Assembly: GCA_910589415.1 (NCBI GenBank)
Contig: OU342639.1
Coordinates: 16,624,268-16,688,267, forward strand
DNA length: 64,000 nt
Direction of reading: 5' to 3'
DNA from: Malachius bipustulatus
Lineage: Eukaryota; Arthropoda; Insecta; Coleoptera; Melyridae
The translations under genes and the position numbers were made by a program. A model generated the notes under the pieces. The model had not been told where the DNA came from and did not search any database. It worked only from the letters and a program-made list of their open reading frames with translations. Below are positions 6,460 through 28,000 of the stretch, in pieces. Within the stretch, counting starts at the first letter, position 1. Every line of letters starts with the position of its first letter.

Positions 6460-7035
6460 GGATCTCGGAAAGTAGAAGAGATACGGACTCGGTTAAATTG
6501 GGAAAAAACTGCTAAATTTTATCCTTAATAAGAATCTGAAAAAAAATTCAGGATATTTTCAGTCGTTGCTGAAATATCCTGAGAAAACTAATAATCAAAA
6601 TTTCTTATTTTAGTCATATCTTTTTTATTATAGGAAATTAATATTTTTTTTTTTTTTTTTGGCTAACATAAGTCATTAATTCGACATTACAAAAATTTTC
6701 AAAGCCGACTAAATTCCAGAGTTTTCATAGATAGCTTTTGTTTTTCTTATGGCCACCATATTGTTTTTTTTTATGTCGTTCGATATAAAAAAGTCATGGA
6801 AACCAAAAATTTATCACAATAAAAAAAATAAAAAAATTTTAGTTTTCTTTATTCGAAAAAATAAACAAAAATTTCTTCATTGAAATTACGTCAATATGAA
6901 GTCATTTTACTTGCCTTATGGTTTCTCAATTTTTATATGATATTCGGTATAAAAAGTTGTCATTTTTTTTGAAAAAAGAAGTAGGTATAAAATTTTTGAA
7001 ATTTTTTTGTTGTCAATTTTTAGTTTTCTCATATA
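6460..7035. mobile_element. Degraded copy of the CAGGGTGCACC palindromic family
   Basis: The stretch parallels the arms of the better copies at 21633, 29649 and 42045: ATACGGACTCGGTTAAATTG, then AAATATCCTGA, TTTCTTATTTTAGTCATATC and CTTATGGCCACCATATTG. The terminal CAGGGTGCACC motif and most of the second arm are lost. It lies directly upstream of the PK1 promoter. Confidence 0.55.
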
Positions 7036-7297: not shown

Positions 7298-7306
7298 GTA
7301 TATAAA
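7298..7306 (+). promoter_or_regulatory. TATA box of the PK1 gene
   Basis: GTATATAAA lies 47-55 bp ahead of the PK1 start codon. This spacing puts transcription start near 7330 and leaves a very short 5' UTR, as is common for neuropeptide genes. The position was read from sequence; the promoter role is inferred. Confidence 0.6.
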
Positions 7307-7352: not shown

Positions 7353-8482
7353 ATGGAGAGACTAGCACTGATTTTATATTTGTTCTTCATCGCCACTATT
7401 TGCACGAATGTAGCGTATTCACGAACAGCGGTAGCGGTAAATATTTATTGCAGTCAAATCAAATATTATAAATATCTCCGATGTAATTTATTTCATGTTT
7501 CTATATTTTTCAGGATAACTCGGACTCTGAACAGCAGACCTTATGGATTGGGCCAAGAGTAGGTAGGAAGAAGAGGGACCCTTACAGGGATATCATTCTC
7601 AGCTTACCTGCATATCAAGATGAAGGTATCCGAATGCTAGGGCTTTTAAATCCACCAAATGGCGACGACTTATTCATTGAAGAACCCAATATGTGGGAAG
7701 TGTTCTCAGATAATCCGAGACAAACTCCATTTAGCCAAACTGAAACGAATTTAATAGGACCTTTATTGACTGAAAAAGATGGAGATGGTGTGCTGTACAA
7801 CTACAATAAGAAAAGTTTTCCGAAGAACCTTAGCGGTTATAATTCTGGATTATCAGGCCAACAGAATAAATTGCTGCAAACCGTCTCAAACTATGATTGG
7901 GAAGTTTTTCTACCAGACAAAGGTAAATTTAAGTTCTATATCTCCTTAAGTGTGTCTAAAGTTCTAATTTCTATGTCAGAGTCAGAAGGTTTGATTCTGG
8001 TAGACTTTTGTAGAGAAATTCCTATCCTAGTCTTTAGTAAGTCTATCTGATTTATTCTTTGACGCAATTACTTCTTATAATTCTTGTTGTTGCTTAGATA
8101 TTAATTTAAGTTGTAATAATTGTTTTAATCTACACCTCATGTCCGAAATAATGTGCAGTAACTGACATTATTTAAAAAAAAAACAATTTCGGAGCAGGAG
8201 CAAGCAGAAACTTTCGTTTCGAGTAAAATTTTCTGCGTGTCACTTCACTAAAGTTGCTTTTTTCTAAGTTGAAGAGATAAGATGTTAATACAATGAATGT
8301 TATTTTCAGGCGACAAGAACCCAAATCTTTCACCAGCATTGACAAAAATTGGAAGCCAGTCTTATGCATCAAGAAAGGAAGCTCCTACTGGAATAGACGA
8401 CGGTTCCCCCATACTTTTGAGGTCTCCTCCGTTTGCTCCTAGATTGGGCAGGGTGGTTCCTACAGCTCTAGGCAAGGTTTAA
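7353..8482 (+). CDS. PBAN/pyrokinin-type neuropeptide precursor (PK1)
   Basis: Exons 7353-7436, 7514-7922 and 8310-8482 (phases 0 and 1, GT/AG sites) give a 221-residue preprohormone. Residues 1-23 are a signal peptide (MERLALILYLFFIATICTNV core). Exon 2 opens with DNSDSEQQTLWIGPRVGRKKR: the GRKKR site would release an amidated peptide ending WIGPRVamide. Exon 3 carries SPPFAPRLGR after an Arg, giving SPPFAPRLamide, a classic FXPRLamide pyrokinin. About 150 residues between them have no further amidation cores. In insects these peptides act on pyrokinin-type GPCRs from neurosecretory cells (muscle, pheromone gland, diapause, feeding); the role here is unknown. The order W-peptide first, FXPRL last matches moth PBAN/diapause-hormone precursors. 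A capa gene is less likely because no FPRVamide periviscerokinins are present. Reading through exon 2 into intron 2 extends the frame to 8050. Confidence 0.88.
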
Positions 8483-8829
8483 GTTTTAAGAAAATGCAAC
8501 GTGTGCATAAACAGGGTCAGCTAGTGGTCCATGTTCTAGCTGATTCAAAATATTTATTCTGCTCTACCTCAACTTAATACACACATACATAAACTTATCT
8601 AAAATCCAGAGCTTCTGCGTTGTTTTAAAATTTATGTTTATGCTATGAGTGTCCTCTTCCCCCTACCACCCAGTGATTTATATGTATTGTGCGTACCTAT
8701 ATCCTTCATTAAAATGTATATCACCGTTCAATATTGGTTGTACTTTTGTAGTATTTGGTGTCTAGTATTTGGTAAATAATAATCTAATCTAGAGTAGGTA
8801 GTAATTTTGTTTCTGTAATATGCGAAAAT

Positions 8830-8835
8830 AATAAA
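8830..8835 (+). promoter_or_regulatory. Poly(A) signal of PK1
   Basis: AATAAA about 350 bp past the PK1 stop codon, the first canonical hexamer downstream on the plus strand. The 3' UTR holds nothing else recognisable. Confidence 0.5.
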
Positions 8836-8839
8836 GAAA

Positions 8840-9525
8840 TTCTTCTTCTCTATATTGTTTCATTGTAACGGAGTACTGTAATCGAATAGACCGCAGGAGG
8901 GGAGGCACAGAGAGATCCCCTTCTCTGTTAATGAACAGGTTGATTTTTTAAATAAAAAAACAAATCATTTGGCTATAATATCTACACAGATCATTAGAAT
9001 TTTCTAATTTTTTGATGCAACTGCATCCTGTTTGTTATCTAGTATTCGATCTGCATTTTCTAAACTTTGAAATTCCAGGACGGGTTTAAGAAAAATAAAT
9101 TGGGAGAGTTTGTACTAAGAAGTTCACCCTGTATGCGATGTTTAAAAATATAATTATTGATTTTCAAAGTGCACAACTAGGCAATGAATATGAAAACTGT
9201 GTAGGTATGTGAAATTTTTGTCACACTTTCGTGGCATTTTTTATAAACGATTCAATCTGACCAAAACTGATATGTCATCATGTCGTATCACATAATATTG
9301 TTATAATTTAAAATGAACATAAAAAATTGCAGATATTTTAACTAAAATAAGTACAGCCTAAGCAACGTGTGTGTCGGATGTTTTGGCTACAGAAACTACT
9401 TCCATCCGCCTATTTCCCAATAGTTTATGGTATAATTTTAATTGAAAATTATATTTTAAAATACTTTAACTGAACAAATTTCTTTTGATTGTCTGCTACT
9501 TGTGTTTTAATATCCATTTTGTTCT
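8840..9525. other. Intergenic, no gene seen
   Basis: AT-rich stretch after PK1. It contains a lone CACCCTGTATG end motif near 9126, probably a decayed MITE terminus. No open frame, RNA gene or clear repeat boundary was found. Confidence 0.4.
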
Positions 9526-9528
9526 TAA

Positions 9529-10345
9529 CTACTGTTCTTCAAATTTATGTGAGATTGAAATGTAGAGCCATGGTGTTATTATAATACATGCGTTTCGTGT
9601 ATCTGTTTCGTGAGAGTTCAGTCTGCAACTCAGAATCACGTTTTTCGCATAAATACCGCTTGACATCCTCGAACAAACCTGATCTACATGATCAGTCCAA
9701 GTAAGCCTTTGATAAATTCTTATTCCTAACATCACAATAGGATCCTCAGCAGGCACATTCCGACTTGTTGACAATGTAATATTCTGTGTCTTAGAATGAT
9801 TTAGCGATAATTTATTTCTGGCAAACCAGGAAGATGCCTGATCAATAGCATCCTTCATACTTCTCCTTGCCACCTGTATATAGTGTAGTGTCAACAGCAA
9901 ATAAACAGTCTGGCAAGTCATTTATATAGACCAAAAACAGGACAGGTCAAATGACGGATCCCTGCGGAACACCATGGACCTGAGGCTATCAGACAAGTAG
10001 GACTGCACCAGTCCATGAGCTCCTCTCTTAACTTCATAGGCCTCCAGCTTGCCAAGCAAAACAGATGACGAGACGCAATAATCAAAAGCCTTTGAAAGGT
10101 CGCACAAAGTCACCTTTGTGCTCCGTCCTCCATCGATCCTAGCTGCAACATCCTCAATGAGCCTCAATACCGCATGAACACCGAACAGTGGAAAAACCCC
10201 TTCGGAATCCAAACTGATAATGGTGACTAAATATCGAATTCTTTTCAAAAAAAGCCAGCAACCTTAGCTTAAGCGCACTCTCAAAGACCCCCGACAAAAC
10301 AGGAGATATAGCAATTGGACGATAGTTTCCGATCTCTTGCACATT
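9529..10345 (-). pseudogene. Decayed LINE reverse transcriptase
   Basis: On the minus strand, in pieces and shifting frame: KKGNVQEIGNYRPIAISPVL near 10340, QFGFRRGFSTV near 10220, CDLSKAFDYCVSS near 10090, GVPQGSVI followed by a stop then PVLFLVYINDLPDC near 9960, and the thumb-side block ARNKLSLNHSKTQ near 9800. The order is that of a CR1/jockey-like RT. The FADD box is reduced to FAVDTT, and stops and shifts make it non-functional. Its upstream end is cut at the foldback element that begins at about 10356. Confidence 0.75.
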
Positions 10346-10355
10346 CCCTTTCTTC

Positions 10356-12525
10356 AGGGTGATTCATGAGTGACCTTACATAGACCAATGGTGATAAGCG
10401 GACTTCAAGGCGGGTCGAAAACCACAAAAGAAATTTTTTTTGTGTGATTGGTTAAGAAGTTACAGGGTGTTTTATGTCTCAGATACAAAACTTTGATAGG
10501 CGATATTTCTGAAACTGCTGGAGATATTTTGTAGAAATTTACTAGGAATGGTGCATTCCGGAAACTCATCAAAACCGCATTCTGAGTTAATTAAAAATCC
10601 AGGACCGGACTTGAAAATTTTTGCCCCCATGGTCTTTGTTGAAAAAGTTTATTTTCTGACCGTGCTACTGAAAAACTGTCATCGAATTTGAAAGGATAAG
10701 AAAAAACTCTATTGAAATCATTCCTCAATTTGAACGGCACACCCAAACCGTCTCGAAAAAAAAATGTCAAAGTAAAACTTCTCAGTAAATTATCGTTTTC
10801 GAGTAGACATATTTTCCTTAATGTTCGTCTGAATTCCTTCAAATTTATTTTTTGACTTGTTTCTGTGGAAAAAATGTTTGACAGAAGGCCAAGCTTTATT
10901 ACTGGGAAATCAGGTGTCAACTACAAAATTTTCAGATTTCACTAATAATCACAAATCATTTCACTAATAACGAATACGCAGATATTATATATTTGTGTAT
11001 GGTTTCTGCAATGGAAATTCAAGAGCAGCTGCGAGAGAATACCATAGAAGATTCCCCAATCGAAGAACACCGGCCCATGTAACGTTTCGCGTGTGTTTTC
11101 CAATTTTCTCGAAACCACGGCATATTTCCCATAGTTCAAAGGAATGCTGAACCTCAATTGGAAATGAGGTCTGAGCCATCAAAACATCGTGGAGATGGTG
11201 GCAGTAAATCCAAGTACAAGTACGCGAAGAATTGGGCAAGCACTGAGAATTTCTCAATCAAGAGTATGGCGAACCTTGAAAAAAAGAAGAGCGGATGCAT
11301 CCCTGTCACGTACAAAGCGTACAGAGGCTTCAACCATTCAATGAAGTTCCATTGAATGGACTGCGTAGAATTTTGTGTACTGATCGAAGCTCAGTTCACG
11401 CGGGATGGTGTAACGAATAAAAAAAACTCCCACCTATGGGCATATGAAAATCCGCGCTCTGTTGTTCAGAAGAACTCGCAACAGATTTTCTATAAATGTG
11501 CAGTGTGGCATTGAAAATGATACCCTAATAGGACCCAATTTTTTGCTGGGCGGCTCACGGGGGAAATTTATTTACTTTTCCTGCAAGTCATTTTGTCCAG
11601 CTTGCTTGCAGAGGCGAACGTGAACAGGCGTGCTCTTTCCTTCCAGCAAGATTTTTCCACCGCATTTTTCTCGACAAGTCAGAGAACATCTCCACAATGA
11701 GTACCCCAATCGTTGGTTCGGGCGCGGCGGCCCTCATTCCTGACCACCTAGGTCCCCCAACCTCACTGTTTTAGACTATTACCTATGGGTCCATATGAAG
11801 CAGGAAGTCTAAAAAACGGAAGTAAGTACCAGAGAGGAGCTCAGGACGCGAATACTGGTAGTTGCTGATGAAATTAGAAACAACAGGCAAATAATTCAAA
11901 AAGCAAACCAAAATTTATGGAAACGCTGCAGGAAATGTATTGAAGTTGGTAAAGGACATTTTGAGAACCGTTTATAACATTAATATTGATAACATTTAAT
12001 TTACACTGACATTTTTCCCACAGAAACAAGTCAAAAAATAAATTTGAAGGAATTCAGACGAACATTAAGTAAAATATGTCTGCTCGAAAACGATAATTTA
12101 CTGAGAAGTTTTACTTTTTTTTTTCGAGACGGTTTGGGTGTGCCGTTCAAATTGAGGAATGATTTCTATAGAGTTTTTTCTTATCTTTTCAAATTCGATG
12201 ACAGTTTTTCAGTAGCACGGTCAGAAAATTAACTTTTTCAACAAAGACCATGGGGGCAAAAATTTTCAAGTCCGGTCCTGGATTTTTAATTAACTCAGAA
12301 TGCGGTTTTGATGAGTTTCCGGAATGCACCATTCCTAGTAAATTTCTACAAAATATCTCCAGCCATATCAGAAATATCGCCTATCAAAGTTTTGTACCTG
12401 AGACATAAAACACCCTGTAACTTCTTAACCAATCACTAAAAAAAATTTCTTTTGTGGTTTTCGACCCGCCTTGAATTCCGCTTATCACCATTGGTCTATG
12501 TAAGGTCACTCATGAATCACCCTGT
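10356..12525. mobile_element. Foldback element with relics of a Tc1/mariner-type transposase
   Basis: Arms of about 510 bp (10356-10870 and 12019-12525) are inverted copies. The ends read CAGGGTGATTCATGAGTGAC and its complement; the right end is followed by TA. The right arm repeats the left-arm block that translates on the opposite strand as KINLKEFRRTLRKICLLEND. Between the arms lies about 1.15 kb of unique sequence holding a broken transposase (11370-11980). This is the only palindromic family in the window with an internal transposase trace. Confidence 0.75.
11370..11980 (+). pseudogene. Broken IS630/Tc1/mariner-type DDE transposase
   Basis: In order on the plus strand: EAQFTRDGVTNKKNSHLWAY and ENPRSVVQ (region of the first catalytic Asp, where the expected WTDEA core is degraded), a GPNFLLGG block near 11530, HFSRQVREHLHNEYPNRW then FGRGG near 11675-11735, PRSPNLTVLDYYLWVHMKQE near 11750 (the PDLTPLDYxLWG block with the last catalytic acid), and ELRTRILVVADE ... 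RRCRKCIEV style C-terminus as NLWKRCRKCIEVGKGHFEN near 11915-11965. Stops at TGA (near 11743) and TAA (near 11813) and several frame breaks disable it. Family assignment follows from the block order known for Tc1/mariner-like transposases of insects. Confidence 0.72.
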
Positions 12526-12887
12526 ATGTAGGTAAAATTTTATTTATTTGAAGTGAACTAGGAAAGAGGGCCTCTGAAATACACTTACATATTTAGTAGG
12601 TATTACAGTTAAAGGTTGAACTATTTCATTGCACACATAGCCAATGACCGCCATTGGCTAACTTTACTTGAAAAATGTTATTTTTTACATTACCTTTAAT
12701 ACATTCAAAAAAATTTACAGGGAAGTTTTGAAAAGCATATTCTTAAAGGAATTAATTTGAAATTTTCACAGTAGGCTATTAAAATAAATTTATACTTATT
12801 ATATCCAATTCATTGTGATATTTATTGAGAAATAAATTGTTATATTTTACATCAGTCTTATCTCACCCCCTCACTAAGTATGTAACG

Positions 12888-12912
12888 ATTATTATTATTA
12901 TTATTATTATAT
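12888..12912. repeat. (TTA)n microsatellite
   Basis: Uninterrupted ATT/TTA trinucleotide run in an AT-rich intergenic stretch between the foldback element and the next LINE piece. Confidence 0.8.
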
Positions 12913-13329
12913 TAAAAGCTTTTTTCGGTATGTTTTGATAGTAGGAATGTCACGTATGTGGAATTATTTCGTAGGGGTAAGATAAGACATTCAATATTTA
13001 TTAAATTACTGGTAGATTATTATAGGACTGCCCACAACATTTCTCTTATATAATGAAGAAATTCTTTCTCATAAACATAAATGACCACATATGTGTTAAT
13101 TTACATCAACTGATCAGGAAAATGAATTATTATTCTACAGAGTGCTCAAAAAAATTAGATTCAAAATATGAACTGTATGGCTATTACACCTAAGTATCTA
13201 AGTATTTGTAACCAGATGAGCTGACCAGTATTTGAAATAAAAGTAATTGGAAATTATTTCAAATACTTTTGGTATTTAAACGATATCAATTTGTTGTTGG
13301 AATATTAAGCAATCTTTAGTATTCCTTAT

Positions 13330-13460
13330 CGACATATAGATGTTTATATCATCCGCCTAAAGCAGTATAGGGCATTTTTACGAATTTAGTGACATCATCG
13401 ACGAAGAGTACAAAAAGCAACGGACTTAAGTTGCTTCCCTGTGGTATACCTGAGCAGTTT
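13330..13460 (-). pseudogene. LINE reverse transcriptase fragment
   Basis: The minus strand reads SGIPQGSNLSPLLFVLFVDD followed by VTKFVK. After a frame break comes ADDINIY, the remains of the catalytic FADD box. The piece covers only the RT palm and is isolated by AT-rich sequence. It may belong with other LINE scraps in this stretch, but no joint is visible. Confidence 0.65.
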
Positions 13461-14010
13461 ACGAATAAGCGTTACGTTAATACGACTTAATTGTAGACTT
13501 TTCGGTTAAAAATAGGATTCCCCTGTAGAGTATTATAACAGTTAGTAATAATCAATTAAAACTTCTGTCTAACTAAGTTCATAGATTAAAAAAATAAGAG
13601 GATTCCATTAAAAGAAAAAACAACTTTAATATGTCACTCTCATTGTGGGAGACTCCGCCGTATAAATATAATAATAATTCTAAATTATGGACATTGTGAC
13701 CCTGTATTTGAATTTGTAAAAAAAAAATTGAAAAAATCCATCACTTGGCCCGCAGAAACTGACTCGGATGAGCTGATCGGCTGATCCATTCATTATAATG
13801 CTTAGCATTAGCATTACCTCCCTCTTTGCAACCACCAAAAACATCAGTAAGAACCTACCATTTTCATTCTTAAGTAAAAAATTATCATTGAGCGACAATA
13901 TCAAGAGCCATATGACAATAAAACTAAATCAAGACAAGAAAATACACAAAAAAAAATGAAACCAACAGAGAACAAGAAAAATCAGAATTCAACGACCCAT
14001 GGATATTGCG

Positions 14011-14265
14011 TCATTGCAGACTAAGATAATGATCATGAACTGCTCTTTTGAAGCTGCTGCTTTTTAATTTCTTAATACATTCAGGCAGTTCATTATACAC
14101 TTTATAAACATTGAATGTAAAAGACCTTTCGAAAATCGCCAGTCTGTATTTTGGGAGCGATATAACATGTCTTCTACGTATATTAATGTTGTGAATGTCT
14201 GTTCTGTATTTAATTCTGTCACTCAAATATGCGGGTGTTTGAGCATCAATTATTCTGTGATAAAA
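14011..14265 (-). pseudogene. 3' end of a CR1/jockey-like LINE ORF2, separated by an insertion
   Basis: The minus strand reads FYHRIIDAQTPAYLSDRIKY, then RTDIHNINIRRRH, and ends KLKSSSFKRAVHDHYLSLQ with a stop. This is the usual C-terminal tail of CR1/jockey-type RT proteins (the 'LP..I......FK..L..YL' pattern appears as LPECIKKL). It continues directly from the RT that breaks off at 17069, once the insertion at 14271-17063 is ignored. Confidence 0.75.
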
Positions 14266-14270
14266 ACAAG

Positions 14271-17063
14271 GTCTCTTCCGAGACCTTGGCCTACCGGCGG
14301 CGTCGGGCCTTCGGCCCTCCATTACGGGCCTTCGGCCCGGAGTTTCAGTAGATCCCCGTCAAAGTTATAATTTTTCATGTTTTTTTCGTGTTAGCTTTTT
14401 TTCTAGATCGCTTTACAGCACCGTGATCAGTAGATTCCGCGTCATAGTTAAAATCTGCCATTCATCTCTTTTTGTGTTATTTTTTTCTATATCTCTCCTC
14501 GAAGGACCAATATGGGAACTTCCGAGACCGCGCGTAAAAGTTAGATTGGCGTAAAAGTTAGTCACGCGTTAATTTGACAGTTCAAGTTGGTCGTGAAAGA
14601 AAGAACAGGTCGCGAGAAGCGAGGATTTTTTTTTTAACAGCTGTCAAATATGTTAATGCGGTCTATGGAATCAACAAAATGCCTAAATGAGTTTTGTTGA
14701 AAAGAGAAACGATTTTTTTAAATGCTCTTGAATTTGACATTTAAAAAATGACACTTTAAATTTTAATTTCGCAATTTTCTCAAAAGACAGTCGTAACCTA
14801 AAGTCTCTTCGTTACGTCAAAAATAAAAAAATGCCGCCATTTTGATTCTCAGAATCCAAAAAAAATTATTACCATTGTTCGAGACACCCATTTCCCCTTT
14901 TATTACCATATAATTTGATATTTGGACGCCCATTTTCTTCGAAACTATGCAAGAAAACAAAAAAAGCGAAGGGTTGGTCTGTCGGAATTTTAAATTTTTG
15001 TCGCTTAAATTTCAAAAATGGCGGCGTTATGATTTTTAGAAAATGGCCCATTTTTTGCTCGCGATTTCTCGACTTTGGCGTTTAAAAAGTCTCAGCTTAG
15101 ATTTTTTTTCGAGTGTTTTTCAAAACGTCACTGCGATTTTTTTGTTGGAAAAAAACTACTCTTTTTCGGGTTTTTCAAGTTTGATATTTTTTAAGTGACA
15201 TTTTCGAATTCGCTGTCATATTTTCATCATAGCCAGAAGAGAATCGCAAGTAATGCCTTTATTTTGATACCGCCAAAAATAATTCAATCACGATTTATAC
15301 CGTCACTATAATGACATTTGGTAAAAAGAAAAACTTTTTTTTCTCAATATTCTTGAATTTGACGTTTAAAAAAATAACAGTTGCAGCTATCCGGGATAGC
15401 TCTTGCACCAATATGTTATTGCAGCACATTTCACCTTTACGACGATACCATAATTATGCCGCCATCTTGATTCTTCGAATCGGAAAAACTTATTTCCTTC
15501 GGTGGCATTTACGGAATTTCCGCATACGTAATATGACAATACGTTCTTTACTCTATTTTTCACGGTGAATTTTTCAAATTTTGAAAATAATAATCACTCC
15601 AAATTATTAGTGAAAGACTAATAGTACATCGCAATTAATTGTAAAAACAATTATTTACAAAATGCATAAGAAAAAACAGAAATTAAGGCATTTCCCGAAC
15701 AGGAACCGCGTATTTATTATCGTTACATAGTAATAATTATTACCATTATAATAATAATATAGCGGGGGAACGGAGCGACCGAGCCCGGCTTCGACGCGTC
15801 GCGATCACGATCGCGCCCGGGAACAGCCGTTGGATTATTATTGACATTTCTTAAAATTGTCATATCTTCGTTATTAAAAGACCAATGTGGATAATTTTTT
15901 CACAATCATTTACGTTAATTAATTGTCGTTGCGACTGTCTTTCTAATTTTCCCAATCGTGCATAAAAAATATGACAAAAAAAAATAAAAAAGCATTAATT
16001 TATCGATTTTTTAATAAAAATAAAAGTGTAAGGTAATTTTCGAGCAGCGAGGAAATTTTTTATTTTTCGTTTAAAGTACCAACATAATCGACACGAAATG
16101 AAGCCAAAACTTCAAATTATGTGTTGAAGAAAAAAAATTTGACAAAAGTGTACCTGTGTCGTCGATCGAAGATGTTATATTTGAAACACGCCTGAACAGT
16201 TTCAATGACCTGCCGAAGTTTTTCCGAATTTTGATAGATTTTCCAACGGTTTAGGAAAAAAACTATATCTATATTTTTTGTAGGTAAAGAACGTCTCTAT
16301 CATACAGTTTTATTATTTTTTCGATCGGTCGACAATATTTCGAAAAAAATTCGAAAGCATGCGATAAAGAGTAGCATTTGGTCAATTGTTATTATTGAAG
16401 AAACAATTGCCGCTCCCAAACAGGGAATTTTTCGGGAAAATGTTTCAAATAAAAAAAATAGCACTTGAAGAACGATTAAAAAAAAGGTCTGATTTGATTT
16501 TTCGCTAGGATGCACCGTTTTCGTTAAAAAAAAATTTTGTTATTTTTTTAAGCCATTCGTGATTTTTTTGTTTTTTTTTTAATTAGTCACTTTTCCCGAC
16601 TTTTCACAAAAAAATCATTATCATGTTTTTAGTAGGTAACTAATGGCTCTATCTCACTGTTTTGTTATTTTTTGGATCGGTCAAATAAATTTTGAAAAAA
16701 ATTCGAAATAGTCGAAAAATCATGCGAAAACGGTGTACTCAATAGGTCGTATTTGGGGGTCCCGAGCTTCGTCCCTACCGAGTTTCATCCCGATCGGTGC
16801 AACTTTCGGACACTTAGAGTGTTTCCTAGGTCGTTCCCGAAAAAAAGTCACTTCCCGGTAACGTATCCCGCTCAATTTCAATAGGCATCGTGGGACCGTG
16901 CGCCTCTTCAATAGAGCCAAATTTCAACTTCCTACGATGAAAAATGGCGCCTCTAGAGTGTTTCCTAGCAAAAGTCACAGAACTTGCGACCTACTGACGG
17001 ACAAAAATCGGGCACAAGGCTTAGGATACTTCCTCGATTTACGATTTCATCGATCTCGGAAGA
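14271..17063. mobile_element. 2.8-kb unclassified insertion splitting a LINE RT
   Basis: The flanking RT reads ...KYYQAC up to 17069 and resumes FYHRII at 14265, so the block between is foreign to it. ACAAG occurs on both sides (14266-14270 and 17064-17068), a candidate 5-bp target duplication. The ends carry inverted TCTTCCGAGA (14273-14282; complement 17054-17063). Inside are GC-rich dyads near 14300-14340, a GC-rich island at 15762-15835, long AT-rich stretches, and a diverged internal duplication around GATCGGTC (16320 and 16675). No protein is recognisable, so it is presumably non-autonomous. The superfamily is not identifiable. Confidence 0.6.
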
Positions 17064-17068
17064 ACAAG

Positions 17069-18175
17069 CCTGGTAGTACTTAGAGCGATACTTCATGTTA
17101 AGCCATCCCGCCTCTCTCAGTTTTGGTGATATATGCTGATATTTTCTGACTCCATAGGAAAAGCGCAAGCAAGCATTTTGAACCCTTTGTATTTTATACA
17201 TAGTTTTCGAATCCAGGCAGGGAGAAAACACTGGCGAGCAATACATAAACTGCGACAGAACTAAAGTTTCGCAGAGCTGTAACTTTAACTTTTGCGGTAT
17301 GAAAGACCTATGAGGATATAATAAACGGATATTCGCATATGCCTTACGCAGGCAAATGTCAACATGTTTCCTGTATCTAAATGAGTTATCCATTATTAAT
17401 CCCAGATTTCTCGCTTCCGTGCTAATTTTTAATACAGTATCATCAACTGTGAGTTTAACATTGTTTCTAATTCTCTCACAGTAGACCCCACTCCCAAACA
17501 GCAACAATGTCGATTTATCTGGATTGAGTCCAAGGCAATGAGTCGCGGAAAATCGAAAGATAGAGTCCAAATCGGAATTGAGTTTTTCAACAGCCACATG
17601 AATTTCTGATGGATCACAGGACAAGTACAATTGTGGGTCGTCAGCATACATGTGAATTTTACAGTACTTCACTATGTCGCACATTCCAGAGGTATAGATC
17701 GTGAGCAACAGTGGTCCAAGTATGGAACCCTGGGGGACACCACTCTCAAGATAACGAGGCGTGGACGTATCTTCGCCCAGCCTTACCCTCTGTGAACGTC
17801 CCCGTAAATAGCTTTCTATTAATCCACAAGCATCGTTAAACGACATATGTCCGAGTATTCTAATCATAATATCATGATTAATTGTATCGAATGCCCTGGA
17901 ATAATCAAGCAGCACCAGTATGGTCACTTAACCCTCCTCCGTAGCACGCAATATGTCGTCACTAACACTACTTAAGTAAGGCAGTCAGGCAACTGTGATT
18001 AGGTCTAAAACCAGACTGCACCTCAGGAAGCAAAATATTCTCTTCTAGATACGTCCGTATTTGGTTGTAGGTACATATTCCTCTCCAGGACTTTCGAGAG
18101 AACTGGGAGAATACTAATTGGTCTGAGATGAGTGTATTCAGTCGGCTGTGATATCTTGGGCAAGGGCAGCACAAG
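17069..18175 (-). pseudogene. CR1/jockey-like LINE reverse transcriptase
   Basis: The minus strand carries a long RT, largely open from 17927 to 17069. From its N-terminus: LPLPKISQPTEYTHLRPISI near 18150, then LPEVQSGFRPNHSCLTALLK near 18000 after a frame change, VLLDYSRAFDTINHDIM (17910), LESGVPQGSILGPLLLTIY (17745), MYADDPQLYLS with both catalytic Asp (17650), then the thumb and connection to KYRSKYYQAC at 17069. One to two frameshifts and loss of the endonuclease make it defective. Upstream it is cut by the nested palindromes at 18192. Its missing C-terminus lies at 14011-14265. Confidence 0.85.
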
Positions 18176-18191
18176 AGCACAATATTTATAC

Positions 18192-18953
18192 AGTGCGCGA
18201 GAAAAGTAAGGAATAAATTCGATAAAACGGAGAGGGCTGTTTTTTTGAAAAAATAAAAAAACAGGTCGATTTTGTTTTTGAGTTGTTCAACTTTTAACAT
18301 AATATTGGGGTATACAGGGTGATGCGCGAAAAAGTGGTGGCGTCATCGGTATTTTTTTTAAATGGCAACCCTTATTTTTTATTCCATTTTTTGATACTTC
18401 ATTCAATTGCCAGTATGGTAATGTAATCAATTTGTAACCTTAAATAAGGAAAATTCTGAGAAAACAGCTTGTGAGTCGAAATTGTGCACTTTTTACTGAT
18501 ATGAAAATCGGAACATTAGCGATAAAAATAAAAAAATATCAAATAAAAATGACTGTTTCCATGGTAATTTTATAAGATATGTCTATTAAATTAAGTCTAT
18601 TAAATTAAATCTGTTAAATTAAATTAAATTAAATCTATTAAATCTGTCTATTGAATTGAATGTCTCCAAATTAAGTTATTTTCACAGAAATTTCGTCGTT
18701 TAAGGTTACAAAATGATTACATTACCGTATTGGAAATTGAATGAAGTATTAAACAATGGAATAAAAAATAAGGGTTGCCATTTAAAAAAAATACCGATGA
18801 CGTCACCACTTTTTCGCGCATCACCCTGTATACACAAATATTATGTCAAAAGTTGAACAACTCAAAAACAAAATCGACCTGTTTTTTATTTTTTCAAAAA
18901 AACCGCCCTCTTCGTTTTATCGAATTTATTCCTTACTTTTCTCGCGCACTGTA
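18192..18953. mobile_element. Palindromic MITE (outer of a second nested pair)
   Basis: The arms (about 115 bp) begin CAGTGCGCGAGAAAAGTAAG after TA and end with the complement before TA. The mirrored inner edges AACATAATATT / AATATTATGT meet at an AT-rich centre where another palindrome is inserted. There is no coding content. It interrupts the LINE RT at 17069-18175 on its upstream side. Confidence 0.75.
18316..18831. mobile_element. Palindromic MITE inserted at the dyad centre of 18192-18953
   Basis: The ends CAGGGTGATGCGCGAAAAAG and complement are each flanked by TA. The mirrored arms include AATGGCAACCCTTATTTTTT and its complement. The middle (about 18440-18700) is AT-rich with a short AAATTAAATT/ATTAAATC stutter. 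Confidence 0.72.
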
Positions 18954-18959
18954 TAAAAT

Positions 18960-19745
18960 GAAATAATAAGAAATCAAAAGTAAAAATAGCTGCATGTAAA
19001 CCGCTTTAAGGTATTTTGAGCTGTTTTTAAAATGAAAAATTCCGATTTTCATTTGTTTGTAGCAAAAAAATTCTTATTGATTTTTTTTTAGACAACATGA
19101 AAATGTAATAATATTATACAGGGTGTTTCATGGGTAATAAGAAAGGTAATGGTAACTTCCGATTTAGCCGGATATTCCTCGAGAACAAAAATCTTCTTCT
19201 TCTTTCGATTCATCCTCATATGAAAACCATTATACTTACACAAATTTTTAAGTTTTTGTCATGAATAGTTTTCCATAGACGGCTGACACACGCTCCGCTT
19301 GGGAAACCCTCCACACTATGTAACAAACTGCGACCTTGATAAATTTCAGAAAGCACCAAAGAAACTCTCATTTAGCGATTTATGAGCGAGAAGTTTTTTT
19401 TTAATTTTATTATTAATTCATTTGTATATTTAATGTTGTTTTATGTAATTTTTTACTTTGTGTAATATGTATTTTTGTGCCATGTTAATAAATTAAATTA
19501 AACATAATGCTAGATCTTTTAGTTTAAGAAAAAAAAAAATTAAAACTCAGGCCTACTCGAAGGTACTTACGTAGGTTCTAACAAGGAAATTTGTGCATAT
19601 GCATGAGATTTGAAACAAAAATAAATGGCATGTCAATTGTGTTTATCAGGGATAATGTTAATTGCTCTTTGGGATGTGAATTGATGGTCTTGGAGGATTT
19701 ACCCAATCAGCAGGGTGGATGCTTGTTTCCCAGTCCACTCCTAGT
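18960..19745. other. Intergenic upstream of PK2, no gene seen
   Basis: AT-rich. It contains a lone TACAGGGTGTTTCATGGGTA end motif near 19118 (probable MITE relic). The last 100 bp before 19745 are less AT-rich and form the PK2 promoter region. No open frame of interest. Confidence 0.4.
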
Positions 19746-19754
19746 TTCCTTGCA

Positions 19755-19762
19755 TATATAAG
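19755..19762 (+). promoter_or_regulatory. TATA box of the PK2 gene
   Basis: TATATAAG lies 34-41 bp before the PK2 start codon, close to the spacing seen at PK1. It supports PK2 as a separate transcription unit rather than extra exons of PK1. Confidence 0.6.
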
Positions 19763-19795
19763 GGTGAGTCGCCAGAAGAGAAATTAGTCTAGAAA

Positions 19796-22700
19796 ATGGA
19801 TCGCGCAATACAGCTTTGTTGGACATTGCTATTTTTCTCTGCTCTTATATTGCATAAATCATGTCAAGCCTACGAAGTAAGTTTACTTATTCCTATTTTA
19901 TTTTTAATTCTTACTACTTGTAATATATTATATATAGGTACTAATTTAAATTTAAATGTAAGCTTTTCTCATCTTGTCGTGATTTTAGGATTCTGCACCT
20001 AGCTACATTATTTCTGCTTAATTAATTACCTGCTAGTGATCTAATTAAAATCACCTAAATTATTATCAAAAGAAGTGAAGAATTAGATTTTTTTTACATT
20101 TTCAGTGTTTTAAATGTAATTTTTTTAAATTTCAACTTTTAAACTTTTTATTAAAACATATTTATTTAAAAAAAAGATAATGCAAACTTTATTTCTAATA
20201 ATTCTGATTAACAAGGATTATAAGGAATTGTCTTAGAAAATAATAATAAACCTAATGTTTTTATTTCTTTTCATGACTTGATTGCTAGAAAATATTCATT
20301 ATCTTATTCATTGAAATTTTAAAATTGGGTTTGTGAAATTATACATTTTTCTTGACATATTGGTAGGTATTTCATGTATTTATAGAGTACAACTAACGGA
20401 TCATCCATGGGAACACTTTGAATTATTCTTCTTGCTTTTTTCTCAAATACAGTGTGTCTCACTTAAGCACGAATATACAAGGTGTGTTCCACGTAATTCT
20501 CGTGGATCTCTGTGTGCCAAGCGATGCATTTTTTCCAAATTTGATGCCCATAATTTTAAATAATTTTGAGCTATACTAAGTAAGACTATATGAGAGTGGC
20601 ATATCAAAGTTATGTATTTTTAATGGCATGCTCCAATGTTATTGCATTTATTGCTCCTATGTTATTGCATTGTATGAGAAGAAAAAAATAAGAATGATTT
20701 TTACAGTTGAAGTTTAAATAAAGTAATTTTTGAGTTATAAACAAATGGAAACAAGTTTCAAAGTTCAAGGCAGCTTACAGGTTGATTTAATTTCGATGTT
20801 TTAATAGAAAATCTCCATAGCTATACGGGATGCAGATAAATGCATCGCGCATCCTGAAATATTAGCACGTTATGAATAAAACCCTGTATAATTTATTTCT
20901 CAAAAATCACAATATATCAATTTTCAAAACGCCCCTGTAGCTTCATCGTTCAAGATGAGTAAACGAAATTGTGAACTCTTATAGAACTTATGGAGGACTT
21001 GGAACTTTCGTTTAAAAAGTCGCGTGATGGTTTCTACCAGGCGTCCCTTTAAATTTCTAAATAAAACACCCGTTTTTGTCTCAGGTCTCAGTTTTAAATA
21101 AACGGGATTGAAGATTTTTGAGCAGTCAGATATCCATCATAAGGAGCGGTCTCATATTGGTTTTTAGCAAAATCGGTTGAGTCGTTTCACAATGACGGCC
21201 ATTTAAATGTATTTTTTGAGCCCCTGTATATGCAAAATAAAATAAAAACTTTCAAGCTAAATTGCGGTATCAAAAGAACGTTTTTCGAACTTAACGATGA
21301 CGTAAAAAAATTTGCAATTTTTTCATCAGTAGCCAATGACGTATGTCTACAGGTTGTCCTAGTTTATAATAAAGTGACTTCAGAATTCGATAAAGAAAAA
21401 ATTCATTTAAAGGGAGAAAGTTTTACACAACATGCATCGAAAAGTTCTTAATTCTCGAAAAGGGTGTTGAGTTTTCTGAAATAAAGTTAATTTTTTGAAT
21501 ATATCAAAATTGTCTCAATGGAATTTCCCAATTTTTTTCGCAGTAGCTGTATTGCTACTTTGTATTGCATAACTGTATTTCATAATTACGTAACTAAAGA
21601 ATTAGGCCAAAATTGCTAAGATTCACTATCTACAGGGTGCACCATGTATCCTTCTCTACATATATTGCTATCTCCTGAACGCTAAGAGATACAGGGTCGG
21701 TTAAATTAGAGAAAAGATGCGCAGTTTTGTGGCCATGTCGAATCCGTCAAGACATGCAAGATATCTGTGACCGTTCCTGAAATATCCTGAAAAAACTGAA
21801 AAATCGAGATTTCTTATTTTTTCCATATCTTTTTTATTATTGGAGATTAATGAATAATTTTTTGTGGGCTTACATAAGTCGTCAAGAGCTATCCATCTGA
21901 CATTTCAAAAATTTTCAAGGCCTACTAGATCCAAGATTTTTCACAGTTAACTTTCGTTTTTCTTATGGCCGCCATATTATTTTTTTATATCGTTCGATTT
22001 GAAAAAAATAATGGAAACCAAAAATTAATAAACTTCAAAAAAAAATTTCAAATTTTTATTCTTCTTTTTTCAAAGAAAAACCTTAAAAAAATCGTCGAAA
22101 AACGTCAACATTTGTCAAATACGCCGATATAGTGCTTGCCTTATGCTTTTTTAATTTATCTATGAAATTCGGTCTAAAAATGTGTCTTTTGTAAAGAAAA
22201 AAGAAGAATAAAAAAAATTTTAATTTATTTTTTGAAGTTTAACAATTTTTAGTTTTTATGATTTTTTTATACCGAACAACATAAAAAAACAATATGGTGG
22301 CAATAAGAAAAACGAAAGTTGACTATGAAAATTCTGGGATCTAGTCGGCTTTGAAAACTTTTGAAATGTCAGATGGGTAGCTCTTGACGACTTATGTAAG
22401 CCCACAAAAAATTATTCATTAATCTCCAATAATAAAAAAGATATGGAAAAAATAAGAAATCTCGATTTTTCAGTTTTTTCAGGATATTTCAGGAACGGAC
22501 ACAGATATCTTGTATGTCTCGACTTGTTTAACCGACCCTGTATCTGTTAGCGTTAGGAGATAGCAATATAGAGAAGGATGCACCCTGTATAATGTATGAA
22601 ATATTTTCAAATAACGGACTGTGGATGACTGAAATGACTAATGTGATAGCACCATTAATAATTTCAGAAAGCGAATTAAAAAACGGCGAAAATATTCAGA

Positions 22701-24242
22701 ATTGAATTAATACATAAAAATAAATTTTTTATGAGATTGATGCTAAAATGTGTTTTTTTACTTGTAAGCGATTTTCACAAATGTCAATCATAATTCACTA
22801 TGTATATGTATTTTTACCTATTTGTGATTAGCATTGTCGAGTGTTTCGCATCAAAACTGATTTATATCGAAAACCGCCATTTTTATAAAAAAAATTAAGA
22901 GTATACCTTTTTTCAAGGTAAATGGTCAGAGTATTTAAAAGATCAGCTCTGTAACATGATACCGCTGTCAAAAATAAACCAAGAGTCTGGTGGCAAGATC
23001 GTTCCCGACCACGTAAAACATCTACAGACTGTAATACACTATACTATAGTGTATGGTTTTTAAGGTTCAAAAGTTAGAGCCAAAGAAGTAAATCACTGGG
23101 CACCATTTTGGGGCTTTATATCTCTTATAAGGAATTTTTTAGGTGAAAAATCTTCTTTTTTGTTATTTCACTTACATTTAAAAAAATTTACAGACTAGTT
23201 CGTTTTGAAAAAGAATTAATATTCCTCCTGTTATTTTTTAAACACAAAGAACTACAAATTTGTATGACAAAAGTACGAAAAAAAAATGAAAAAACATACG
23301 GCACCCTTGTGTATGAAAGATGAAAGTAAACTTTGAAGCAACATTAACAGGATCGGAAGAATTTTTTCAGGATTTTACTTTAGTGTAAAAAATTGCATTT
23401 TTTTTAGCTGGCATGTAACATAGGTAGGAAAGGGAGCGAAGTTGCTTAGTTCATCCTTTGACCTTGAAAAATATTCAAAATTGTTCAAAAAAAATACACT
23501 CGTTTAGCGATTGATGCGCAAGTTGTTCCACGTAAGATCAGCATTTGCTCTAAGTAATATTTTATCGAGACTTAGTACTAAAAGTGTACCTTAGATTAAA
23601 AAATAATTATAAATTTATTCATTGGTTGAGGTTAGCAGAAGTTTTAGGTAGCTGCACAGTTTTCCTTTTAGGCAGAAGCCTGAAGTTACTTTGGACCGCG
23701 GGTCATAACCCAGAGGTCCTATAGTTTCTAATTCCAAAAAAAAAACTTGAAAAATCCTATAATTAAAAATACATTTCAGTAGGTGTGAATAAAATGCATA
23801 TTGTTTTAGGATGGCGATAATGATCAATCTTCTGAATCTTCCAGAATAGCTAATGACCCTAATGGAGATTATATTTCTGATGATGAATATGATGGTAATG
23901 AATACGAGGAACCTTTCTATTTAGGTATTTATCATAGACATAATTATAATCCATAAGTGTGCCTTTAAATCTTATAAATCTTATAATATTTTTGCAGAAT
24001 TGAAGAGGGGGCAACTATTGGTGCCACGACTTGGTAGGTCACCATTTGTACCACGTCTTGGTAGGTCAGCTCCTCTTACACCACGTCTTGGTAGGTCACC
24101 ATTTACACCTAGACTTGGTAGATCGGCTTTCACCCCACGGTTGGGTCGTGCGTTCTTCGCACCACGTCTAGGAAGCATAATGCATGGTGAAGATGATGTC
24201 TGGATGCAGAAGAAGAGGGCATTTATTCCAAGATTGGGATAA
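19796..24242 (+). CDS. Multi-copy pyrokinin (FXPRLamide) precursor (PK2)
   Basis: Exons 19796-19876, 23810-23924 and 23998-24242 (phases 0 and 1) give 146 residues. Residues 1-25 are a signal peptide (MDRAIQLCWTLLFFSALILH core). Exon 2 is an acidic spacer, DGDNDQSSES to EEPFYL, without peptides. Exon 3 is almost all peptide array: after a KR site come GQLLVPRL, SPFVPRL, SAPLTPRL, SPFTPRL and SAFTPRL, each followed by GR (amidation plus cleavage). Next is AFFAPRL followed by GS (no basic residue), then a KKR site and AFIPRLG at the very C-terminus. So up to six amidated peptides are predicted. Ligands of this kind act on pyrokinin receptors. Structure and phases match PK1, so a tandem paralogue is likely. 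Intron 1 (3.9 kb) holds a repeat and a palindromic MITE. Confidence 0.9.
20870..21240 (-). repeat. Inverted copy of the 2.8-4.0 kb dispersed repeat
   Basis: Within PK2 intron 1. It shares the GCGTCCCTTTAAA, TTTTTAGCAAAATCGGTTGA and CAATGACGGCCATTT blocks, reversed, with the repeat at 2830-4080. Non-coding. Confidence 0.5.
21633..22587. mobile_element. Palindromic MITE, CAGGGTGCACC family, copy 1
   Basis: TA-flanked ends CAGGGTGCACCATGTATCCT and a slightly shortened complement. Arms of about 450 bp mirror each other throughout (for example TTATGGCCGCCATATTATT against AATATGGTGGCAATAAG). It lies inside PK2 intron 1, about 1.2 kb before exon 2. Sister copies: 29649-30639 and 42045-43060. Confidence 0.82.
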
Positions 24243-24317: not shown

Positions 24318-24323
24318 AATAAA
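24318..24323 (+). promoter_or_regulatory. Poly(A) signal of PK2
   Basis: AATAAA 76 bp past the PK2 stop, giving a short 3' UTR. It lies only about 25 bp from the likely minus-strand signal of the convergent sarcalumenin gene. Confidence 0.6.
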
Positions 24324-25080: not shown

Positions 25081-28000
25081 TCAACTCCCCGGGGCTGTCT
25101 GCTGCTGATTTACTTCCCCCAAAGCGCTTTCAACGAGCTTTCTATGCTTTCCAATTAGCTCAGGGAGATCATAAGCGATGGCCACGTCTAGCCTATTGAT
25201 CGGACAACCTCTAAAGTAGGTGCATGTGGCGGAGAGTTGTTGGAACTCATACAAAGGATTCAGCTTGAAAAAGTCTCGATAGACATCTGGATCGGGTAAA
25301 TCGTAACGCGAAATGTTGGTCAATGTAGAAAGGCCTTCATAGATGTGATAATCTTGGGGATGCTCAGTTATTTGGTCGGCTACTTGTTTCTTGTTACCGA
25401 ATACCGATTTGTGATTGTAATAGGTTGTTAAATAGCAGTCGACCATTTTTGCATGGTTACGTACACGGACCTAAAAAATATAGCAAAATATAGGAAACAT
25501 TTTCTACTCAGATTATTGAGATATACTTACGGCGAATCTTCGCGCACTGGCAATTTTATTCTCGATGCGTTTGTCGACGGCATGTCTGAGATCTCTAAGA
25601 AAGGCTCTCTCTTGCGCTTGGAGTAGTCTGACAGGTGCCCAAGATTCAAAAGGTCTTGACCAAAGCGATGTCGTGTACATAACTGGTGGTTGTGCACTTG
25701 ACATCAATGGTGAAATATTCCAAATTAAAGCACCTTGTACTCGCATCAGTTCTTCTGGTTTTACTTGGTCAGCCTTATTCAATATAATCCTTGTCTGAAA
25801 TTGAACAATTTCGTGTTTTATGGAATTCTTCATCGATTTTAAAAGTTTATTTATATTTACTTGGTGTTCCCGTCCTTTTAATTGATCGAGTATTGCTTCA
25901 GTTTCAGGTCCCACGTCGAGTTTAGAAGGGTCATAAACCAGGAATATAATGTCAGCCCTGTCAATAAACCATTGACAAGCATCATTGAATGGGAACACTC
26001 TGGAAATAATTTTTCGCACTTCCAAGATTCCAGGTATCTCAACTATATTCACCTGTTATGAAAAATAATTATTAGAATTTTTAATTTGAACGAGTTTCAA
26101 TAAAAACCTTCTCTAGTAATTTCGAATTAATTTTAATTCCCCTCAGACGTTCTTCTAGACCTTGTCCAAATTTCTGCAAGCCCGAAAATGTAAAATCAGC
26201 TGCCAGTTGAGTTCCATCAATGACTTCAAACTCCTCACCGTACATAAGAATATTGAAATAAGCTGGAGATGGTTCGGCACCTGTGAAATTAAAGGATAAT
26301 TTAAATTTGTTCGCTAATGCATTGTACCTCACCTGTTCTCAATGATGTTTCGCTGTATTCGTTATCCAACAAGTAGTTAATAATTGAAGATTTTCCGCCA
26401 CTCCATGGTCCCATGAATAAAATGAGAGGCTTGGAGAAGATTTCAGCGTCACCAAAGTGCCTGTTACTCAGATCCCTGTACTTGTACAACGTTTCTAGAG
26501 GCTTAATAGCGCTTTCATAGAGCTTCTTTAGTTCCCTTAAAGTGATTTCGCTGACCTTGTTCAATATATTCTCAGTTTCAGATGATTCTTCGTCCAATTT
26601 CAATAATTGCTCTACATGATCTCTAACACGGACTTCATCTGGTTTTTCATCAGCTTGAGTTAATTCTTCTTCTGGTGCCTCTTCACCAGTTTCGTCACTT
26701 TCATTCTTCTCTTCACTACCAACCTCTTTAGATTCTGATTCTGGAGCCCCTTCTACACTTGCGTCATCGCCTTCTTTGCTTGATGCTTCTTCTTGTGCTG
26801 CGTCTTCTTTAGATCCTTCTTTTTGGTCTTTCTCTTTACTGTCTATCAAAAATAAATAAAAATGATATCTGCATGATCAGAATTAAATGTAACTAGCCTT
26901 ACCTTTATCAGCTTCTTCATGAGTTTCTTCAGATCGGTCGACAATTGGAATACTTCTTACAATTCGAGACAAAGTTTCACCGTCAGCTTCTTCGTCGGAT
27001 TTAGTCTCTTCACTAACATCAACAGACTCAGTTTCCTGTTTATTTTCATCTTCTTGCTTGCTACCATCTTCTTCTTCTGATTTATTATCGTCTTTTTTAT
27101 CATCTTCTTGTTTGCTGCCGTCTTCTTCTGATTTACTGTCATCTTTTCTATCGTCTTCTTGTCTACTGTCCTCTTCTTGTTTACTATTTTCTTCATCAGT
27201 TTCTGTAACTATTTCTTCTTTGCTTTCTTCTTGAACCTCTTTGCTTTCTTCTTGAGCCTCCGTGCTTTCTTCTTGGTCCTCTTTCCTTTCTTCTTCGCCT
27301 TGCTTGCTTTCGTCCTCTTGTTGGACTTCTAATTCTTCTACAATTTCTTCAAATACTGCCTCCTCGACAGAGTGCCCAGCATCCTCACTTTGAGCATTTT
27401 CTTCACTTTCTTCAGTTTCTGTTTCAGTCAATTCAAGCACATCTTCACTCTTTTGTTCATCACTGCTTTCCTTGTCAGTTTCATCAGTTTCTTCCTTGGA
27501 TTGATCACCATCGATTTGTTCAGCACTTTGAGTCTCCCCTGTATCTGCTTCCGCTTCTTGTTCTTGAGCTTCACGACTTTCTTGTGGTGCTTCGACACTT
27601 TCTTCTGCTTTGTCTTCGGTGGATTGCGTTTCACTGTCAGTGTCTTTCTCTATCGATTCGTTTTCGTTCTTTCCTTCGGTTGATTCATCGTGATCTTCTG
27701 CTTCCTTGCTGCTTACATCTTTAGTGTCTTCTTCTGTGTGAGCTTCTTCTTCTGCATTAGATTCTTCTTCTTCTGCATGAGCTTCTTCTTCTGAGTGAAC
27801 TTCTTCTGTATTATCCTGTTAAAATTTGTTTTAATAGAGTTAATTGATTTTTTTCGAAAATCTTACCGAAGGTTCTTCGATTATTTCTTGAGAAATAGAG
27901 TGATCTTCGTTTTGTTGTGCTTCTTGACTTTCTTTTCCCTCTGTACTATCCTGGAATATATTATTGTGTTTTGTTTTGAATTATTGGAAAGATACTTTTA

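Follow-up and report, generated by a model that had tools for sequence, protein, structure and literature searches.

Two intact neuropeptide precursor genes, PK1 and PK2, were found on the forward strand of the 64-kb stretch of DNA analyzed (hereafter, the window). Each consisted of three exons, and 11,313 nt lay between the two coding regions (Table 1). Translation and splice-site inspection placed GT/AG borders at all four introns, and the intron phases were 0 then 1 in both genes; the introns were 77 and 387 nt long in PK1, and 3933 and 73 nt long in PK2. The first AATAAA past the stop codon occurred at +347 nt in PK1 and +75 nt in PK2. Each predicted product had a hydrophobic N-terminal core, LALILYLFFIA in PK1 (mean 2.92) and WTLLFFSALIL in PK2 (mean 2.25), as judged by the Kyte-Doolittle scale alone. 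The probability of an exon being open by chance was 1.4e-4 for PK1 exon 2, 0.005 for PK2 exon 3, 0.024 for PK1 exon 3, and 0.083 for PK2 exon 2, for which openness alone was no evidence. These results agreed with the sequence-only reading, which had described two complete neuropeptide genes about 11 kb apart on the same strand, with three exons and phases 0 then 1 in both, an acidic start of exon 2, and a TATA box and poly(A) signal belonging to each.

Table 1. Features of the window, with positions counted from its first nucleotide.
Feature	Position	Strand	Remarks
PK1 TATA box (TATATAA)	7299-7305	+	54 nt 5' of ATG
PK1 coding region	7353-8482	+	product of 221 aa
PK1 exon 1	7353-7436	+	signal-peptide-like N-terminus; phase 0 at end
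PK1 exon 2	7514-7922	+	acidic DNSDSEQQ; TLWIGPRVG-RKKR (tryptopyrokinin slot); long spacer; phase 1 at end
PK1 exon 3	8310-8482	+	SPPFAPRLG-R; degenerate-looking tail VVPTALGKV; stop
PK1 candidate poly(A) signal (AATAAA)	8830-8835	+	
ORF between PK1 and PK2	9529-9921	-	no Pfam family at E 0.01
Reverse transcriptase ORF, retrotransposon	16965-17927	-	Pfam RVT_1, 3.4e-18
PK2 TATA box (TATATAA)	19755-19761	+	41 nt 5' of ATG
PK2 coding region	19796-24242	+	product of 146 aa
PK2 exon 1	19796-19876	+	signal-peptide-like N-terminus; phase 0 at end
PK2 exon 2	23810-23924	+	acidic spacer DGDNDQSSESS..., without tryptophan peptide; phase 1 at end
PK2 exon 3	23998-24242	+	seven PRLG motifs, six amidatable
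PK2 candidate poly(A) signal (AATAAA)	24318-24323	+	
Sarcalumenin gene, 3' part	25081-27815	-	tail-to-tail with PK2; borders by eye; high-coordinate end is where reading stopped, not the gene start
Reverse transcriptase ORFs, retrotransposon	54079-55343	+	Pfam RVT_1; ORF at 54079-54669 just under gathering score
Leprecan TPR-like region ORF	59994-60485	-	Pfam PF23557, 1.2e-14

Exon 2 of PK1 encoded the peptide DNSDSEQQTLWIGPRVG-RKKR, whose tryptophan-containing end is predicted to yield TLWIGPRV-amide, an unusual sequence rather than WFGPRL, and exon 3 encoded a predicted SPPFAPRL-amide. The VVPTALGKV sequence at the end of PK1 looks like a decayed copy. In PK2 the motifs followed one another in the order GQLLVPRLG-R, SPFVPRLG-R, SAPLTPRLG-R, SPFTPRLG-R, SAFTPRLG-R, AFFAPRLGS, KKR and a final AFIPRLG, and no tryptophan peptide was present. 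The sixth motif, AFFAPRLGS, was not amidatable because no basic residue follows the glycine; the six predicted amides were therefore GQLLVPRL, SPFVPRL, SAPLTPRL, SPFTPRL, SAFTPRL, and AFIPRL. The last coding exon thus held one amidatable FXPRL motif in PK1 (FAPRL) and four in PK2, with two LXPRL motifs and the one nonamidatable FAPRL motif in addition. The divergence in content between a W-peptide/single-PRL gene and a PRL-array gene, as first proposed, was borne out, except that the W-peptide is a WIGPRV-amide and not a PRL peptide. FXPRLamide cores were likewise present in exon 3 of both genes as described, but two of the seven PK2 motifs were LxPRL and the sixth would not be amidated.

To scan the window in six frames, we used the strict motif [FLIMVW]xPR[LVIM]G[RK*], that is, PRxG followed by R, K, or a stop. 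All eight matches in the whole 64 kb lay inside PK1 or PK2 exons, whereas 60 simulated Markov-1 windows gave a mean of 0.12 matches and a maximum of 1. By this motif scan of the whole window, there was neither a third pyrokinin gene nor a capa gene.

The best Pfam family for both precursors was PBAN (PF05874), yet both scored under its gathering cut-off of 22.7: PK1 reached 17 bits (E 0.0057, residues 4-51), and PK2 reached 15 bits (E 0.023) with no single stretch passing. A profile score is an aid and not a defining trait, and the assignment rested mainly on gene structure and peptides. In a protein search with PK2, 21 proteins among 4569 candidates were found at E ≤10, only four of them at ≤0.005. 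The best matches were from Tuta absoluta (6.1e-8) and then Petrolisthes (2.6e-3); Grapholita, Cydia, Trichoplusia, Locusta, and others matched at E 0.06 or worse. PF05874 occurred in 11 of the 21, from moths and butterflies, Locusta, a crab, and one unnamed source, and the other 10 were from spiders, a scorpion, a millipede, or unnamed sources; no beetle was named among the 21, several of which were nameless. The T. absoluta PBAN-domain protein (P0001) likewise carried a multi-copy SPRLGR array, but it combined this array with an upstream WFGPRLG in one protein, whereas PK2 had no tryptophan peptide. Since T. absoluta is a moth, its array is likely to be an independent expansion. None of the 101 candidates from the search with PK1 reached E ≤10; because the same database holds insects, as the search with the neighboring sarcalumenin gene indicated, this suggested either fast evolution with short motifs or missing relatives. 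The PK1 region had no match in a megablast against plasmids, which was an uninformative comparison. A PDB match of PK2 (24018-24179) to coagulation factor V, with a whole-sequence E of 3e-6, was rejected as chance periodicity; its single stretches had E values of 1.8 to 60, and repeat aligned on repeat in four registers.

According to the parts of Veenstra (2019, PMC6585902) that treat these genes, the basic pk gene of beetles comprises three coding exons and two introns, one of phase 1 and the other of phase 0; exon 1 encodes a signal peptide, exon 2 a tryptopyrokinin, and exon 3 three pyrokinins. Beetle capa genes, in contrast, comprise 4-7 coding exons, of which the last is usually acidic, and all their introns are of phase 1. 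With three exons and phases 0 and 1, both PK1 and PK2 follow the basic pyrokinin gene and not capa. The tryptopyrokinin slot of exon 2 contained WIGPRVG in PK1, with a core altered relative to WFGPRL, and no such peptide in PK2. Two details differed from the published account, as far as it goes: the phases there are named 1 before 0, with the order unexplained, whereas they were 0 then 1 here, and the introns are described as small, whereas PK2 intron 1 measured 3.9 kb with a foldback repeat.

We also considered that PK1 might be the capa (periviscerokinin) gene, leaving PK2 alone as the pyrokinin gene. The PRV-amide end of the W-peptide would fit a periviscerokinin, and beetle capa likewise has a tryptopyrokinin (PMC6585902), but the exon number, the phase-0 intron, and the SPPFAPRL-amide in PK1 exon 3 argue against a beetle capa gene of the structure given above. 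The sequence FPR(V/L/I)G had 0 matches in six frames of the window, a result that is not decisive because some beetle periviscerokinins lack this ending according to the same source. Taken together, we regard a capa identity of PK1 as very unlikely.

The gene lying tail-to-tail with PK2 encoded sarcalumenin with a long acidic N-terminal region. Among the 120 of its 589 database matches that were listed, the best 19 included 15 named ones, all 15 from beetle genera (two Tribolium, Brassicogethes, Aethina, Exocentrus, Agrilus, Onthophagus, Anoplophora, Gonioctena, Leptinotarsa, Ignelater, Nicrophorus, Atheta, Abscondita, and Photinus), and the match at rank 20 was the sawfly Cephus; the DNA is of beetle origin. 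The ORF with the leprecan TPR-like region probably represents one of the first exons of a gene of the prolyl 3-hydroxylase type. Between PK1 and PK2, the ORF list contained two ORFs of at least 120 aa, one of them a reverse transcriptase. This interval was read as sequence at 8483-14500 and 17500-19795, and a small gene of short exons may lie in the remainder, 14501-17499. An element at 10344-12535 had long inverted arms (345 nt at 96%) and two shorter arm pairs, and enclosed broken short readings; we take it to resemble a mariner-type relic. Shortly 5' of PK2, at 18185-18957, there was a foldback/MITE-like inverted repeat with 230-nt arms at 91% (outer 76 nt at 97%). The foldback repeat in PK2 intron 1 occupied 21746-22523, and an incomplete member of its family was located at 6532-6774, just 5' of PK1.

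The similarity between the whole PK1 and PK2 proteins was weak, with a local score of 50 that was reached by 3 of 500 shuffles. Little protein sequence was common to them outside the motifs, far beyond an allelic difference, no repeat of at least 40 nt linked their exons, and the window contained no N. Draft assemblies can carry false duplications, as is generally known, but with these observations we consider it of almost negligible probability that two alleles or misplaced copies were placed side by side by the assembly. Because the protein sequence outside the motifs was almost unrecognizable, the duplication was probably not recent. When the 130 nt upstream of each gene were aligned with the TATA box as anchor, in a test designed after the likeness had already been seen by eye, the score was 65; of 202 control TATA sites in the window, 0 attained this value for PK1 and 1 attained it for PK2. 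The unanchored promoter alignment was weaker, being reached by 2 of 500 shuffles and, among real 300-mers, by 0 of 409 from the PK1 side and 11 of 409 from the PK2 side. This likeness is suggestive of a segmental copy that took the promoter along, and the introns retained in both genes disfavor retroposition.

It might be supposed that the two genes form one transcription complex, in which a read-through RNA would join PK1 exons 1-2 to PK2 exon 3 and so produce an ancestral precursor with a tryptopyrokinin plus an array. All boundaries are phase-matched, and such chimeras would be in frame, but a phase match is also expected from common descent; moreover, separate TATA boxes and poly(A) signals are present at the two genes, and the coding regions are 11.3 kb apart. 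We consider such joined transcripts highly improbable. The best explanation, and in our judgment a very probable one, is that PK1 and PK2 are two functional paralogous beetle pyrokinin (pk/PBAN/hugin-type) genes that arose when a pk gene with three coding exons was duplicated segmentally, the promoter probably included, and that have since diverged.

The repeat units of PK2 were spaced by 27, 30, and 27 nt, and in the 12-nt PRLG core the PK2 units shared 8.9 nt with one another on average (21 pairs) versus 7.4 nt with the PK1 unit (7 pairs), a modest difference. These values fit an array that would have been enlarged within PK2 by in-frame duplication of units of 27-30 nt.

The presence of two genes had been taken as unusual, insects often carrying one PBAN/hugin-type gene. 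The pair is real, but it is no surprise in a beetle, since amplification of the pyrokinin gene, mostly segmental, has been reported in five beetle species, and loss of the tryptopyrokinin from a copy is described as well (Veenstra 2019, PMC6585902). The passages concerned attribute the loss from one of two precursors to at least Nicrophorus and, on our reading, to Dendroctonus, Hypothenemus, Anoplophora, and Leptinotarsa, although "one of two" may fit Nicrophorus only. Aethina, with five precursors, and Oryctes are also named there as having several precursors; the species named exceed the stated five, and the exact list is uncertain. PK1 and PK2 resemble these amplified genes in having three coding exons separated by an intron of phase 0 and an intron of phase 1. 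They differ from the basic gene with its three paracopies in that PK1 has one PRL peptide, PK2 has seven motifs, and the W-peptide is WIGPRV-amide; PK1 and PK2 are linked, whereas adjacency of the copies is unstated in those passages.

The red palm weevil likewise has two pyrokinin precursors, known as PK1 and PK2 transcripts, beside one capa (PMC7058690). Both of these incomplete transcripts are reported to encode a tryptoPK, with three and two pyrokinins, and linkage is not mentioned in the account of them. One PK/PBAN-like precursor is described for the ladybird Henosepilachna (PMC12194362), and a review gives a three-peptide pattern for most beetles in its treatment of the family (PMC10755894). 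Possession of two pk genes thus appears recurrent in beetles and not universal.

Of six peptide strings used in a literature search, SPPFAPRL was found in three papers and the other five in none. According to the relevant part of PMC3016957, SPPFAPRL-amide, identical to the PK1 peptide, was detected by mass spectrometry in Zophobas, and the same peptide is named there for Tenebrio and for Tribolium; the further Tenebrio pyrokinins given there, HVVNFTPRLa and H(L/I)SPFSPRLa, had no counterpart in the motif scan of the window. The peptide is also reported from several hemipterans (PMC8541414), and hence it is no beetle marker.

From what is known of the family, each gene would be transcribed from its own TATA promoter, and the prepropeptides would be secreted, cleaved at basic sites (RKKR, KKR, or KR, and the lone Arg in R-L-G-R), and amidated at the exposed Gly. 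PK1 would then give one W-peptide (...TLWIGPRV-amide) and SPPFAPRL-amide, and PK2 up to six PRL-amides, presumably neurohormones from the suboesophageal ganglion with pyrokinin receptors as their targets. Subfunctionalization of the pair, as suggested in the sequence-only reading, is plausible, but the pair could equally reflect decay of the tryptopyrokinin slot combined with growth of the PK2 array. What is least ordinary about the pair is the PRV-amide end of the W-peptide, whose core departs from WFGPRL at two places. This peptide may be a weak or redirected ligand, which would favor decay or a shift over a neat split of subfunctions; the changed core agrees with slot decay or with an altered receptor preference as well as it does with a clean division of labor. 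PRV-amide is a typical capa ending, and it is conceivable, although unlikely, that PK1 is changing its function: with its tryptopyrokinin turned into a WIGPRV-amide, it may have moved from the pyrokinin receptors to that of capa, leaving the pyrokinin output to PK2. If this were true, a pk paralog would have acquired a capa-like ligand.

Reasons discussed for keeping amplified copies include neo- or subspecialization and a need for large amounts of peptide (among those raised in PMC6585902). Our knowledge of the pyrokinin family is unchanged by the pair, a tidy but ordinary example that adds one linked and easily read case to the beetle pattern of pk amplification and tryptopyrokinin loss from a copy. 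Because the peptide sets of the two precursors are nearly separate, one could test directly in this species whether tryptopyrokinin-type output has to be controlled separately from pyrokinin output.
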